Shown here: piece after piece, positions 4,151-47,803 of the stretch
Layout: every line of letters starts with the position of its first letter
How positions within the stretch are numbered: the first letter of the stretch is position 1
NCBI RefSeq assembly: GCF_029243085.1
Contig: NZ_JAQWSS010000084.1
Location: forward strand, 1 to 47,803
Length of the DNA: 47,803 nucleotides
Source of the DNA: Candidatus Thioglobus sp.
GTDB lineage: Bacteria > Pseudomonadota > Gammaproteobacteria > PS1 > Pseudothioglobaceae
Reading direction: 5' to 3'
Notes under the pieces: generated by a model
Database searches by the model: none
The model's input: only the letters and a program-made list of their open reading frames with translations
What the model was told of the DNA's origin: nothing
Translations under genes and position numbers: made by a program

Positions 4151-6025
4151 ATGTCTGAACAAAAAACTGATAATCAATCACAAAAAACATTTAATGATTT
4201 AGGTCTTTCCAATTCGATTCTAAGTGTACTAGATACTATTGGATATGAAACCCCTTCTCCGATTCAGGAGCAGTGTATCACTCATCTTTTAAACGGCGAG
4301 GATATCATTGGTCAGGCGCAAACAGGTACTGGAAAAACAGCTGCTTTTGCTCTTCCGTTATTAGATAATATTGATCTTAACTTAAATGCGCCTCAGCTAC
4401 TCATTTTAGCGCCAACACGTGAACTGGCTATTCAGGTTTCAGAAGCCGTTCAAACTTATGCACGTGGCATGAAGGGTTTTCATGTGCTGCCAATTTACGG
4501 TGGACAATCTTATGATGTTCAACTGCGTCCTTTAAAGCGCGGTGTTCATTGTGTAGTAGGAACGCCTGGTCGTGTGATGGATCACATCAAAAAAGGCACT
4601 TTGAAGTTAGAAAACTTAAAGTCATTTGTACTAGATGAAGCCGATGAAATGTTAAAGATGGGCTTTATTGACGATATTAAATGGGTAATGGAGCGCATTC
4701 CTGAACAACGTCAAATTGCACTTTTCTCTGCTACCATGCCAAGTGTGATCAAGCGTGTTGCTGAAAAATTTTTAAACAAGCCTAAAGTTGTTCAAGTCAA
4801 AAACAAAACTGAAACAGCGCCAACTATTACTCAAAAATACTGTCTAGTTGGCGGCTTACAGCAAAAACTTGACGCACTAACTCGAATTCTAGAAGTGACA
4901 GAGTTTGACGCGATGATTATCTTTGCGAGAACCAAAACTTTGACAGTTGAATTAGCAGAGAAACTTTCAGCTAGGGGATTTACTGCTGAGGCGATAAATG
5001 GCGATATTCAGCAAAATCAGCGTGAGCGCTTGATTAATAACTACAAAAAAGGCAAGATTGACATTCTAATTGCAACTGACGTTGCGGCTCGTGGACTAGA
5101 TGTACCACGTATTTCTCATGTAGTGAACTATGATATTCCTCAAGATGCAGAAACTTATGTACACCGAATTGGTCGTACTGGTCGAGCTGGACGCGAAGGT
5201 GAAGCAATTTTATTTGTCACTCATCGTGAGCGTCGTATGCTTAACAATATTGAGCGTGTAACACGTCAAAAAATTGAGCCTATTGAGCTACCTACTGCAA
5301 AAATCATTAATGAAAAACGTATTGACACGTTTAAGAAAAAAATAACAGAAACTATTAACAATCAAGATTTAAGCATCTTCGAAAAACTTGTTACTGAGTT
5401 TCAAGAAGCTAACGAAGACAGTTCGCATCTTAAAATTGCAGCAGCGTTGGCACATATTGCACAAGGTAACGAGCCTTTACTATTGTCTGAAAAAGAGCCA
5501 AGCTTTGGCAGAGATCAAAAACCAGGTGAAGAGAAAATTGTACCAGTAGAGGCAACTCCGCTAAAAGATCATCCGCAAATTCCAATGCGTCGCTATAAAA
5601 TCGAAGTGGGCAATAGTAACAATATTAAGCCGGGAAATATTCTCGGCGCCATTGCTAATGAAGCAGATATGGATAGTGAATACATTGGCTCTATTCAAAT
5701 TTTTGATCATTTTTCGACTGTTGATTTACCAGATGAAATGCCCAAAGAAATATTTGAGGTGTTGAAAAAAACAACAGTTAATGGCAAGCGCTTGAATATT
5801 GCTGAATTAACCGAAAAAAACAACAAGGCAACCGTTGGTGGCTTACAAAAATCTAAACGAAACTTTGGCCGTAAGAAGTTTTCTAAAGACTCGCGTGGTG
5901 GCAACCGAGGCTCTAGAGATGGCGGTCGAGGCTCTAGAGATGGCAGAAAAGGTGGTGGAGATAACAAGGGTGGCGGTCGTAATAAACCTAAATTCTCACG
6001 CTCTAAACCTAAAAACAATTCTTAA
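4151..6025 (+). CDS. deaD: DEAD-box ATP-dependent RNA helicase with Gly/Arg-rich tail
   Basis: AQTGTGKTAAFALP, PTRELA, DEAD, SAT, ARGLD, HRIGRTGRAGR motifs; C-terminal RNA-binding domain and RGG-like tail. Confidence 0.9.
   Translation: MSEQKTDNQSQKTFNDLGLSNSILSVLDTIGYETPSPIQEQCITHLLNGEDIIGQAQTGTGKTAAFALPLLDNIDLNLNAPQLLILAPTRELAIQVSEAVQTYARGMKGFHVLPIYGGQSYDVQLRPLKRGVHCVVGTPGRVMDHIKKGTLKLENLKSFVLDEADEMLKMGFIDDIKWVMERIPEQRQIALFSATMPSVIKRVAEKFLNKPKVVQVKNKTETAPTITQKYCLVGGLQQKLDALTRILEVTEFDAMIIFARTKTLTVELAEKLSARGFTAEAINGDIQQNQRERLINNYKKGKIDILIATDVAARGLDVPRISHVVNYDIPQDAETYVHRIGRTGRAGREGEAILFVTHRERRMLNNIERVTRQKIEPIELPTAKIINEKRIDTFKKKITETINNQDLSIFEKLVTEFQEANEDSSHLKIAAALAHIAQGNEPLLLSEKEPSFGRDQKPGEEKIVPVEATPLKDHPQIPMRRYKIEVGNSNNIKPGNILGAIANEADMDSEYIGSIQIFDHFSTVDLPDEMPKEIFEVLKKTTVNGKRLNIAELTEKNNKATVGGLQKSKRNFGRKKFSKDSRGGNRGSRDGGRGSRDGRKGGGDNKGGGRNKPKFSRSKPKNNS
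5906..5947 (+). repeat. Two tandem copies of a ~21-bp unit encoding the RG/RD-rich DeaD tail
   Basis: CGAGGCTCTAGAGATGGCGGT then CGAGGCTCTAGAGATGGCAGA. Confidence 0.85.
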
Positions 6026-42737: not shown

Positions 42738-44681
42738 CTAAAACACAATATTAATCATTGTTAACATAACCACTAAGAATAATATAGTCATAATGCCACC
42801 AGCTTTAATAAAGTCAGCGACTTTATAACCACCAGGGCCCATGATTAACGCATTAACCTGGTGTGTGGGAATTAAGAATGAATTTGAAGTGGCAATTGCA
42901 ACAGTCAGTGCATATATAGCAGGATCTGCACCAACCTGGATTGCAATGTTAACCGCAATAGGAACCAATAAAATAGTGGCGCCTACATTTGACATGACCA
43001 AAGTAAAGAAAGTTGCCAATACCGCAATAGCGGCTAATATAATCCAAGGTGCCATATCACCAACGACTGCTACCGTTTCTTGAGCAATCCAAAGCGCTGT
43101 ACCAGTTTTAGAGACAGCTAAACCCAGTGGAATCAAACTTGCAAGCAAGAATACCGTTTTCCATGACACTGCTCTGTAAGCCTCTTCAATTTTCAGAACA
43201 TTAGTTAAAATCATACCTAATGCACCAGTCATCAATGCAATTGATAGTTTGATGTCGGTAAACAATATTAAAAACAGCGCAATACCGAAGAAAACACCTG
43301 CCCATTTTACTTTTTCAGGTCTGGTTTCTTCTTGCTTAGGATATTCAGACGTTACGATAATAAAATCTTTGTTGTTTTGTAATCGTTCTAAATCTTCCCA
43401 ACAAGTGTGGGCCACAATAGTATCACCGGATTGGAACTCAATATCTCGAATACCGTCTCCTTCCTTTAATGTTTCACCGTTACGATGCAGAGCAACCATA
43501 GCCAAACCATACGTCTTTCTCAACCAAACATCTCTAGCAGTTTTGCCAATTAAATTTGAGTTCGGTGGTATGACTACTTCAGCTGTTCCACAATTTTGTG
43601 TTGAAAGCAAATCGGTAAATTGTTCAATTTTATCCAAAAGTTCAAGTTTGAATCCACTAACAAAACTTTCAACGCTAGCACGTGATGTCAATACGCCAAT
43701 TGTTGTATCTGGCTGAATAGTAGTATCTCTGTCAACAGAATCCTGACCAATAATGCCATTCCCCTTATCATCTTGTAAAGCTACCACCCGAACTTTGGAA
43801 ATAGTTTCTATCTCATCTAATTTTAATCCGACAAGTTTACTATCGGCTGGAACTCTAATCTCATATAAATCATAATCAATCTTGTACACTTTTTGAAAAT
43901 ATTCAATCGCAGAGACGCTCGTATCTTTCTTTTCTTTCTGCGTTGGCAGTACAAACTTTCCGGCAATCATAAAATAGATAATGCCAGTAGCAACCAGTGC
44001 AATTCCTATTGGTGTTACCGAAAACAAACTCCATGTATCCATTTGGTTTTCAGCTGACAGACCTTGATTAGTTGTCAATATTAGATCGTTTAACAAAATT
44101 AATGGACTAGAGCCAACCATAGTCATAGTTCCGCCCAATATAGCTGTAAAACCCATTGGCATAAGTAATCTTGACATTGGCACACCTGACTTTGACGAGA
44201 TACGACTTACCACTGGAATAAACAATGCGGCAGCGCCAACATTTTGCATAAATGAAGATATAAATCCAACTGTTGACGATACAATCGGAATAATCTTAGT
44301 CTCAGATTTTCCGCCATTTTTAAGAATAAAAGTTGCAACCTTGGTCATCAACCCTGTTTTATCCAGCCCAGCTCCGATTATCATTACCGCAATAATTGAC
44401 ATTACAGCGTTAGAAGAAAAGCCATCAAACAATCTATTGTTATCAACCAATCCTTCTTCTAAACCCATAATGGTGTAAATCAGTGGCAATGAAGTTAAAC
44501 CTAAAATTACCATGATCGTAACAGCGGCTTCATCTACATCGACCACTTCAAATGCAAATAAATAAATTGTTAATAATAAGATAGCTAACATCCAAGCAAT
44601 AGAAATAGTCGGAGTAATTGTTGATAAATATAGTGCGAAAATCGCAAAAATAATACCTGCAGTAATTTTAATATTTGGCAT
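42738..44681 (-). CDS. SLC13/DASS-type permease with cytosolic RCK_C (TrkA_C)-like domains
   Basis: Multi-TM N- and C-terminal halves (MSIIAVMIIGAGLDKTGLM, SNVGATILLVPIAVNIAIQVGADPAIYALTVAIATSNSFLIPTHQVNALIMGPGGY) flanking two soluble stretches with RCK_C-like RVPADSKLVGLKLDEI and VIPPNSNLIGKTARDVWLRKTYGLAMVALHRNGE. Confidence 0.87.
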   Translation of the reverse strand: MPNIKITAGIIFAIFALYLSTITPTISIAWMLAILLLTIYLFAFEVVDVDEAAVTIMVILGLTSLPLIYTIMGLEEGLVDNNRLFDGFSSNAVMSIIAVMIIGAGLDKTGLMTKVATFILKNGGKSETKIIPIVSSTVGFISSFMQNVGAAALFIPVVSRISSKSGVPMSRLLMPMGFTAILGGTMTMVGSSPLILLNDLILTTNQGLSAENQMDTWSLFSVTPIGIALVATGIIYFMIAGKFVLPTQKEKKDTSVSAIEYFQKVYKIDYDLYEIRVPADSKLVGLKLDEIETISKVRVVALQDDKGNGIIGQDSVDRDTTIQPDTTIGVLTSRASVESFVSGFKLELLDKIEQFTDLLSTQNCGTAEVVIPPNSNLIGKTARDVWLRKTYGLAMVALHRNGETLKEGDGIRDIEFQSGDTIVAHTCWEDLERLQNNKDFIIVTSEYPKQEETRPEKVKWAGVFFGIALFLILFTDIKLSIALMTGALGMILTNVLKIEEAYRAVSWKTVFLLASLIPLGLAVSKTGTALWIAQETVAVVGDMAPWIILAAIAVLATFFTLVMSNVGATILLVPIAVNIAIQVGADPAIYALTVAIATSNSFLIPTHQVNALIMGPGGYKVADFIKAGGIMTILFLVVMLTMINIVF

Positions 44682-44711: not shown

Positions 44712-46469
44712 CTATGAAATTAAATGTTTTAAAGGGCTTTTAGATGCGGCATCTTCATCACCAAGCTCACGCCAAGCAAAACGAAGCGCATCAGTTCGTC
44801 GATCGTAAAAGCGGTTTTCACCGTATCTGTCCATAAATCCTGCTCGTTTTAGCACTTTTTCAATACCTTCAGTACGAGCAAATATAATCTCAACACCATT
44901 GGAAGAGCAACGATCCAATAATCTAGTAAGCATATCTTCACCACTTGCATCAATCCAATTAATTCCGGCCATATCAACAATAATATACTTTAAGCATTTT
45001 TGCTTTGATGAAATCAAGTCAAGAATCTTATCTTCAAAATAGCCTGCATTTGCAAAATAAAGGGAACCTGAATATTTAACAATAGAGACAACTTCGCAGC
45101 GTTCTAATTTATTTTCTAATGCATTGACCAGCATAGCAGAGCCATCATGGGCGGAAAGCTCTGTAAATCTTGGTTCCATCGTACGATAAAGGAACAATCC
45201 TAATGATAATATTATTCCAATCAGGATTCCATCTTCTAAATGTGGCGCAGCTATTAACGTTAAGACAAAGGTAACAACTGCAACTACTGCATCATGCTTT
45301 TCAACTTTCCATGCCTGTTTTATTGGTTCAATTTTAATCAAATTGAGCACTGCAGTCATAATAACAGCTGCTAATGCTGCTTGAGGGATATGATATAACA
45401 AAGGTGTTAGCCATAATAGTGTAAAGCCTACTAATACGGCAGTAACAACTGAAGAAAAGCCCGTCACAGCACCTGCTGAAATATTTACTGCTGAACGTGA
45501 AAAAGAGCCAGAGATAGGGTAGCCTTGAAAAGCTCCAGCAGCAAAATTAGCTAGGCCTTGACCCATTAGCTCCTGATTAATATCTAAACGTTGTTTTGTT
45601 TTAGCTTGCATTACCTTGGCAATTGCAATCGCCTCCATGAAACCAATTAATGCAATAGTAATGGCAACCACCATCATTCCGCTCATAGCTGAGAAGTCAA
45701 ATTCTGGCATAATCAGACTAGGCAAACCCTCTGGAATCTTGCCAACAATAACACCTCCAAAACCACCTTCCTCAACTGGTTTGCCAAAATCTATCAAATA
45801 AGAGAAATATGTCGTAATCGCTACAGCTATCAATACTCCTGGTAATTTAGGCTGATATTTTCTAATTACAATAATAATGCTAGCAGCAAAGATGGCGATC
45901 ACTAATGTCAAAAGATGGACGTCATTCGTGGCATTAACAACCGTTCCCCAAACCTGTTCGTAACTTTGTTCACCAGAGCCTTTTGAAACGCCGAAAATTT
46001 TATTTAACTGCGAGGTGGCGATAATAATAGCGGCTGCATTGGTAAACCCTACAACAACTGGATGAGATAAAAAATTAATAACAAATCCAAGCTTTAATGC
46101 GCCCATAGCTAATCGAAAGAAGCCAACCATGAATGCTAATAAGGAAGCATAAGCTGCATAAGTTACCATGTCAGCCCCTTCTGGAACTACCATTGGTATT
46201 GCTGCTGCAGTTAATAAAGAAACAATCGCAACAGGGCCAGTAGCTAATTGGCGCGAAGAGCCCATTAAGGCGGCTATCATTACTGGAAAGAATGAAGAGT
46301 AGAGGCCATACTGTGGAGCTAATCCTGCCAGTTGTGCATATGCCATTGACTGTGGCACCAATACCAATGCAACTGTTAATCCAGCTACCATGTCAGCTCT
46401 TAAGACTTTTTTATCTTTGAGTTCGTGTATCCATGCCAAAAAAGGCAAATATTTTGCAAATTTATTCAT
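44712..46469 (-). CDS. SulP family inorganic anion permease with STAS domain
   Basis: ADMVAGLTVALVLVPQSMAYAQLAGLAPQYGLYSSFFPVMIAALMGSSRQLATGPVAI, GSFSRSAVN, C-terminal STAS (IVDMAGINWIDASGEDMLTRLLDRC). Confidence 0.93.
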   Translation of the reverse strand: MNKFAKYLPFLAWIHELKDKKVLRADMVAGLTVALVLVPQSMAYAQLAGLAPQYGLYSSFFPVMIAALMGSSRQLATGPVAIVSLLTAAAIPMVVPEGADMVTYAAYASLLAFMVGFFRLAMGALKLGFVINFLSHPVVVGFTNAAAIIIATSQLNKIFGVSKGSGEQSYEQVWGTVVNATNDVHLLTLVIAIFAASIIIVIRKYQPKLPGVLIAVAITTYFSYLIDFGKPVEEGGFGGVIVGKIPEGLPSLIMPEFDFSAMSGMMVVAITIALIGFMEAIAIAKVMQAKTKQRLDINQELMGQGLANFAAGAFQGYPISGSFSRSAVNISAGAVTGFSSVVTAVLVGFTLLWLTPLLYHIPQAALAAVIMTAVLNLIKIEPIKQAWKVEKHDAVVAVVTFVLTLIAAPHLEDGILIGIILSLGLFLYRTMEPRFTELSAHDGSAMLVNALENKLERCEVVSIVKYSGSLYFANAGYFEDKILDLISSKQKCLKYIIVDMAGINWIDASGEDMLTRLLDRCSSNGVEIIFARTEGIEKVLKRAGFMDRYGENRFYDRRTDALRFAWRELGDEDAASKSPLKHLIS

Positions 46470-46503
46470 GATTTAACCCATCTGTACAACACAAGATTAG
46501 CAG

Positions 46504-46556
46504 TTAACTAGACTTTATTTCTTAAAAGAATAATTTGTATTCTTTTATCTAGTTAA
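46504..46556. repeat. Nested inverted repeat in the SulP upstream leader
   Basis: Outer arms TTAACTAGA (46504-46512)/TCTAGTTAA (46548-46556); inner arms AAAAGAAT (46524-46531)/ATTCTTTT (46539-46546). Confidence 0.8.
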
Positions 46557-46619
46557 GTAACGTTAGAAACTTATAAACCATAGAAGTTAATAAGACGGAG
46601 ATCCGATTCATATAAGCAG

Positions 46620-46628
46620 ATTATAACA
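46620..46628 (-). promoter_or_regulatory. Candidate extended -10 promoter for the SulP transcription unit
   Basis: Minus strand reads TGTTATAAT (TGn-TATAAT), implying a leader of roughly 140-145 nt before the SulP ATG; no good -35 seen. Confidence 0.45.
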
Positions 46629-46653
46629 TACTCATAGTCTGTGCACGTTAGTT

Positions 46654-46907
46654 TTAGAGGGTGTTACGAATGACTAGTTCGTTATAATCGAATTTTTTAC
46701 TTCTCAGAATACTAACATCACTAATACCTAGCAACAGATCAATAAAAGGTTGTTTTAATAACTCTATAGTCCTTTTTTTAAACCTATGGCGGTAACAAGA
46801 ATAACACTTAGAAATTCATAGATTTCAGCAGGCAGACGGCTCTCTGCTCGCATTAATCCAGCTATCAACCCTAATATAACGGATAGTACAATTGGAACTA
46901 GAGCTAT
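46654..46907 (-). pseudogene. Degenerate N-terminal remnant of an SbtA-like sodium-dependent bicarbonate permease
   Basis: Manual translation of the minus strand from ATA (46907; no in-frame ATG/GTG/TTG at the expected start): [I]ALVPIVLSVILGLIAGLMRAESRLPAEIYEFLSVILVTAIGLKKGL*. Another frame continues just after the A7 tract: IELLKQPFIDLLLGISDVSILRSKKFDYNELVIRNTL*. VLFFxLGxIAGLxRSDLRLPxxIYExLSxYLLxAIGLKGGVEL is the pattern I associate with the SbtA N-terminus. Confidence 0.68.
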
Positions 46908-46943
46908 TAATCAATCACTCTAAGGATAGCTATAAATTTAACT

Positions 46944-47747
46944 TTATGCAAAGAAAGTGCTGACTGCCGCGCCCAATGTATCTCGCATATCAATATCATC
47001 AGTTAGTGGCTCTACTAATGCCATGTGACAAGCATCCTCAGGACTAATACCTTTAGAAATAAGTTGACCTGCATAAATCAATAAACGAGTAGACATACCT
47101 TCATCCAGTCCATGGCCTTTTAAATTACGTGAACGCTGTGCAACCTGAACTAATTTTTCAGCTGTTTCTCTGTCAATTCCAGTCTCATGTGCAACAATAG
47201 AAACTTCTGTTTCACTAGGCGGATAATCAAAAGACATGCCACCAAAACGCTGCTTAGTGGATTGTTTCAAATCCTTCATCATTGATTGATAGCCTGGATT
47301 GTAAGAAATTACAATTTGAAAATCTGGATGTGCATCAACTTGCTCACCTTTTTTCTCAAGCGGCAATTGACGACGATGGTCGGTCAAAGGGTGAATAACA
47401 ACCGTTGTATCTTGGCGCGCTTCAACAATTTCATCAAGATAACAAATAGCACCAATACGTGCCGCAGTAGTTAATGGTCCATCTTGCCACTGCGTACCAT
47501 TCGCATCAAGCAGGAAGCGTCCTACTAAATCTGATGCAGTCATATCTTCATTACAAGCAACACTAATTAATGGCTTTTGCAACTTCCAAGCCATATATTC
47601 AACAAATCTTGACTTACCACAACCTGTTGGACCCTTAATCAAAACAGGCATTCTGGCAGAATACGCCGCCTCATAACGTTCAACCTCTTGTCCAACCTTA
47701 TGGTAGTACGGCTCTTCAGTTATCATATATTGACTAGTGTCTATCAT
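46944..47747 (-). CDS. cbbQ: CbbQ/NirQ/NorQ family MoxR-type AAA+ ATPase (RuBisCO activase component)
   Basis: YHKVGQEVERYEAAYSARMPVLIKGPTGCGKSRFVEYMAWKL, CNEDMTASDLVGRFLL, DGPLTTAARIGAICYLDEIVEARQDT; upstream GGAAAG. Confidence 0.87.
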   Translation of the reverse strand: MIDTSQYMITEEPYYHKVGQEVERYEAAYSARMPVLIKGPTGCGKSRFVEYMAWKLQKPLISVACNEDMTASDLVGRFLLDANGTQWQDGPLTTAARIGAICYLDEIVEARQDTTVVIHPLTDHRRQLPLEKKGEQVDAHPDFQIVISYNPGYQSMMKDLKQSTKQRFGGMSFDYPPSETEVSIVAHETGIDRETAEKLVQVAQRSRNLKGHGLDEGMSTRLLIYAGQLISKGISPEDACHMALVEPLTDDIDMRDTLGAAVSTFFA

Positions 47748-47803
47748 TTTCTTTCCTTTCGATTAATTTATATCAATGTTAGAATACATTTTACCTAACT
47801 ATT

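Follow-up and report, generated by a model that had tools for sequence, protein, structure and literature searches.

In Thiomicrospira pelophila, sbt-CS and sulP-CS adjoin the carboxysome locus, and each of these transporter genes rescued carbonic-anhydrase-deficient E. coli at low CO2 (PMC12628692). We analyzed a 47,803-nt stretch of DNA (the window), which is a contig of the draft assembly G000 (122 contigs, with an estimated contamination of 3.78%). A genome of the same genus, G001, resembles T. pelophila in having SbtA- and SulP-family transporters beside its alpha-carboxysome locus. In contrast, of these two transporters the window's genome has kept only SulP intact, and its sbt gene is dead, as judged here from the sequence.

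The SbtA and SbtB proteins of G001 match the cyanobacterial proteins by sequence (Synechocystis Slr1512/Slr1513; PDB 7cye, 6wue, and 7cyf), whereas the window retains only about 61 N-terminal residues of SbtA and 11 C-terminal residues of SbtB. The gene order of G001, cbbO–cbbQ–sbtA–sbtB, is also found in two gammaproteobacteria from outside the family: G240 (L182) and the isolate S140_32 (L025). Their SbtA is 77% identical to that of G001, but we saw no carboxysome-linked SulP of this type beside their sbtAB.

We conclude that the interval between cbbQ and SulP in the window is, very probably, what remains of a defunct bicarbonate-uptake unit of two genes, sbtA–sbtB, that closed an alpha-carboxysome operon at its 3' end. 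This reading is carried by homology, an intact copy in the sister genome, a deletion, relaxed selection on what is left, and intact neighboring genes. As a kind, an sbtA/sbtB pseudogene is ordinary, and its setting is less so: the relic is of moderate interest because the Thioglobus/SUP05 clade has been reported to lack genes for DIC transporters (PMC10880623), and an alpha-carboxysome operon with linked transporters is found here in close relatives of Ca. T. autotrophicus EF1.

The cbbQ–SulP interval and its intact counterpart

The gap between cbbQ and SulP spans positions 46470-46943 (474 bp). On the minus strand it encodes ALVPIVLSVILGLIAGLMRAESRLPAEIYEFLSVILVTAIGLKKGL and then a stop, and another frame goes on with IELLKQPFIDLLLGISDVSILRSKKFDYNELVIRNTL. 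A T7 tract (A7 on the minus strand) lies at 46773-46779, and the expected start, at 46905-46907, reads ATA. On all of these points, our re-reading agrees with the sequence-only reading, which had proposed that this is a decayed sbtA that lost its start, its frame, and its C-terminus.

The first fragment matches Pfam's Sbt_1 (PF05982) with E = 2.6e-8 and 34 bits (the cut-off is 27), across profile positions 1-42. Taken together, the two fragments score 35.1 bits across positions 1-56. A full-length SbtA in one frame would cover about 308 profile positions; what is left in the window corresponds to positions 1-62 and contains internal stops. NCBIfam gave zero matches for the fragments, which is uninformative because the intact SbtA and SbtB of G001 have no match there either. 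In a search of the whole genome, the cbbQ–SulP interval was the sole place in G000 with Sbt_1. We also sought a compensating second copy of Sbt_1, SbtB, a second SulP, or DabA in the window's genome and found none.

In G001, the same interval between cbbQ and SulP holds an intact sbtA (L003:1489-2421; 310 amino acids; Sbt_1 E = 1.7e-114) and an intact, PII-like sbtB (L003:2434-2736; 100 amino acids; P-II E = 2.9e-23). In an alignment, the entire window interval is collinear with this pair. Two BLAST segments abut at window positions 46723/46724, and exactly 1,029 bp of G001 is missing between them. The deletion is in frame (1,029 = 3 x 343): sbtA runs to about codon 61 and is followed directly by the 11 codons that end sbtB. 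At the junction (46723-46724, minus strand), we looked for a long direct repeat that could lie behind the deletion; only the dinucleotide TT is shared.

The relic of sbtA (46723-46907, minus strand) corresponds to roughly codons 1-61 of 310. Its extent rests on the Sbt_1 match, the alignment to the intact gene, and the BLAST segment boundary at 46723. Besides the lost start codon (46905-46907, minus strand; ATA instead of the ATG of G001), it is frameshifted at the A7 tract (46773-46779, minus strand). This is more than a slip of a single base: relative to the intact copy the window has a net gain of two bases, and substitutions flank the tract. The relic of sbtB (46687-46722, minus strand) consists of the last 11 codons (SDVSILRSKKF) and the former stop codon, which now reads GAT. 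With just these 11 codons left, the window's copy lacks the P-II domain (PF00543).

The significant Sbt_1 match and the intact homolog at the same locus in G001 uphold the proposal of a decayed sbtA beside cbbQ, but not of a relic of sbtA alone. The second fragment had been attributed wholly to SbtA, which we reject: it is a hybrid, in which IELLKQPFIDLLLGI comes from SbtA and SDVSILRSKKF is the C-terminal end of SbtB, a PII-like regulator. Nor was the C-terminus lost gradually, as the main lesion is the internal deletion that fuses sbtA to sbtB. With an intact ortholog at the locus in G001 and disabling lesions in the window, the window's sbtA is a pseudogene and not a functional member of Sbt_1.

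We propose that sbtA, encoding a sodium/bicarbonate symporter, and sbtB, encoding its PII-like partner, once stood at the 3' end of the alpha-carboxysome operon, and that the internal deletion removed the greater part of sbtA and almost the whole of sbtB. The loss of the start, the frameshift, the loss of the stop codon of sbtB, and unconstrained substitutions are further lesions; the order of these mutations is inferred. Of the transporter's 310 residues, only some 60 at the N-terminus are left, out of frame, and we do not expect a functional product. The intact unit presumably transported bicarbonate, as judged from its sequence.

Substitutions in the relic and other explanations

Between the window and G001, 19 of the 38 differences in the sbtA relic are at codon positions 1 and 2, versus 8% of the differences in cbbQ and 14% of those in SulP, so the flanking genes are still constrained. 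To assign the changes to branches, we used the homologs from L025 and G240 as two outgroups. There were 10 amino-acid changes on the window's branch and 1 on the branch of G001 (binomial p = 0.012). With either outgroup, the second-position changes were 9 and 0 (binomial p = 0.004). These counts are small, yet they agree with a loss of constraint on the window's sbtA.

Could the deletion be a misjoin in the assembly of an organism with an intact sbtAB? With a draft in 122 pieces and some estimated contamination, the junction could conceivably be chimeric or reflect a mixture of strains, and strain-like variants of cbbL are found at the ends of contigs C7 and C31. However, both flanks of the junction are collinear with G001, and the lost start, the frameshift, the lost stop of sbtB, and the nonsynonymous excess do not depend on the join. 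We consider a misjoin improbable. It is even less probable that the relic has kept a coding role, for a short functional peptide or leader, either a 34-codon ORF that starts with TTG or an SbtA–SbtB fusion. The deletion by itself would leave such a fusion in frame, but the frameshift and the loss of the start disrupt it, and positions 1 and 2 are hit as often as position 3, mostly on the window's branch.

Because the sequence is short and membrane-like, its similarity to Sbt_1 might in principle be due to chance hydrophobic resemblance. Given the E value, the way the relic aligns, codon by codon, with an intact gene at this locus, and the adjoining tail of sbtB, the chance of this is negligible, and the intact syntenic copy in G001 refutes it.

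The same interval in related genomes

To examine the distribution of these genes, we searched 83 genomes of the order. Sbt_1 is present in just two of them, G001 and the window's genome, while CsoS2 is present in four (G000, G001, G010, and G026). Within the Thioglobus/SUP05 family, alpha-carboxysome operons are found at L121, L122, L144, and L181. DabA was not found in any of the six genomes that we examined for it.

The slot after cbbQ varies. In G026, SulP follows directly, with a gap of 164 nt between the called ORFs. In G010 (L122:9997-11316) and G008 (L123:1477-2796), the slot holds a second SulP-family transporter of 439 amino acids, which has no match to the STAS domain. Homologs of this 439-residue protein are found elsewhere in G001 and G026, but not in G000.

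In a midpoint-rooted tree, the CbbQ proteins of G240 and L025 fall in one group with this family's carboxysomal CbbQ (support of 0.993). The simplest reading is that sbtAB arrived with the operon and was then lost or replaced on several occasions; alternatively, the line of G000 and G001 may have gained it later. Overall, we lean slightly towards the view that the Thioglobus/SUP05 family has a carboxysome-bearing branch, absent from the literature that we searched, in which the contents of the cbbQ–SulP slot are in flux: G026 has no transporter there, G001 has sbtAB, G010 and G008 each have a second SulP, and the window has the relic of sbtAB. If so, these would be natural strains for testing the redundancy of SbtA and SulP. 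A relative of EF1 that is losing SbtA–SbtB but keeps SulP also offers a direct comparison for which bicarbonate transporter the carboxysome needs, and in which water chemistry.

The carboxysome operon and the remaining candidate transporter

On one side of the relic is cbbQ (46944-47747, minus strand), which encodes the AAA+ subunit of the RuBisCO activase. It is intact (267 amino acids; 99% identical to G001) and ends the carboxysome operon ahead of the relic. Upstream of cbbQ, the alpha-carboxysome operon of G001 comprises csoS2, csoSCA, csoS4A/B, a bacterioferritin-like gene, acRAF, mcdA, and cbbO (csoS4A/B, mcdA, and cbbO are named from resemblance and position). The counterpart in G000 is on contig C31 (L144), with cbbS, csoS1, csoS2, csoSCA, csoS4A/B, acRAF, mcdA, and cbbO. 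The end of C31 overlaps the end of the window by 16 exact bases (47788-47803, minus strand), and therefore cbbO adjoins cbbQ. The setting is thus more than RuBisCO genes alone: the relic lies at the end of an alpha-carboxysome operon, next to the csoS2, csoSCA, csoS4A/B, acRAF, and cbbO of C31.

The bacterioferritin-like gene on C31 (L144, about 5330-5612) is also a relic: its 5' part is degraded, most of its middle is deleted, and its 3' end is retained. This gene is intact in G001 and G010 (143 amino acids). Because it decayed in the same way, by internal deletion, it counts in favor of decay at the cbbQ–SulP interval as well. At the corresponding position in L024, there is no ORF of at least 80 amino acids. 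The end of C7 (L191) and the start of C31 (L144) both fall within cbbL; they resemble each other without being identical, which suggests that strain variation broke the assembly there. We looked for a clean overlap from cbbL (C7) to cbbS (C31) and did not find one.

On the other side of the relic is an intact SulP-family anion transporter (44712-46469, minus strand; 585 amino acids; 96% identical to G001). At this locus it is the one candidate left for bicarbonate transport, as judged from its sequence, although it scores well below the curated cut-off for BicA (158.7 versus 880 bits). By analogy with the sulP of T. pelophila, which rescued E. coli, this SulP may suffice for uptake; it is the most likely supplier of bicarbonate to the carboxysome and presumably made sbtAB dispensable. 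Beyond it is an intact SLC13/CitMHS-type anion transporter with TrkA_C domains (42738-44681, minus strand; 647 amino acids), in the same order as in G026.

Upstream of SulP, a block that contains TATAAT (46620-46640, minus strand) is conserved in G000, G001, and G026 and is a possible promoter for SulP. A consensus scan for sigma-70 sites found none in the gap, and no terminator was found there. Positions 46505-46565, also upstream of SulP, form an imperfect 28-nt inverted repeat that is 71% complementary, with 5 nt between the arms.
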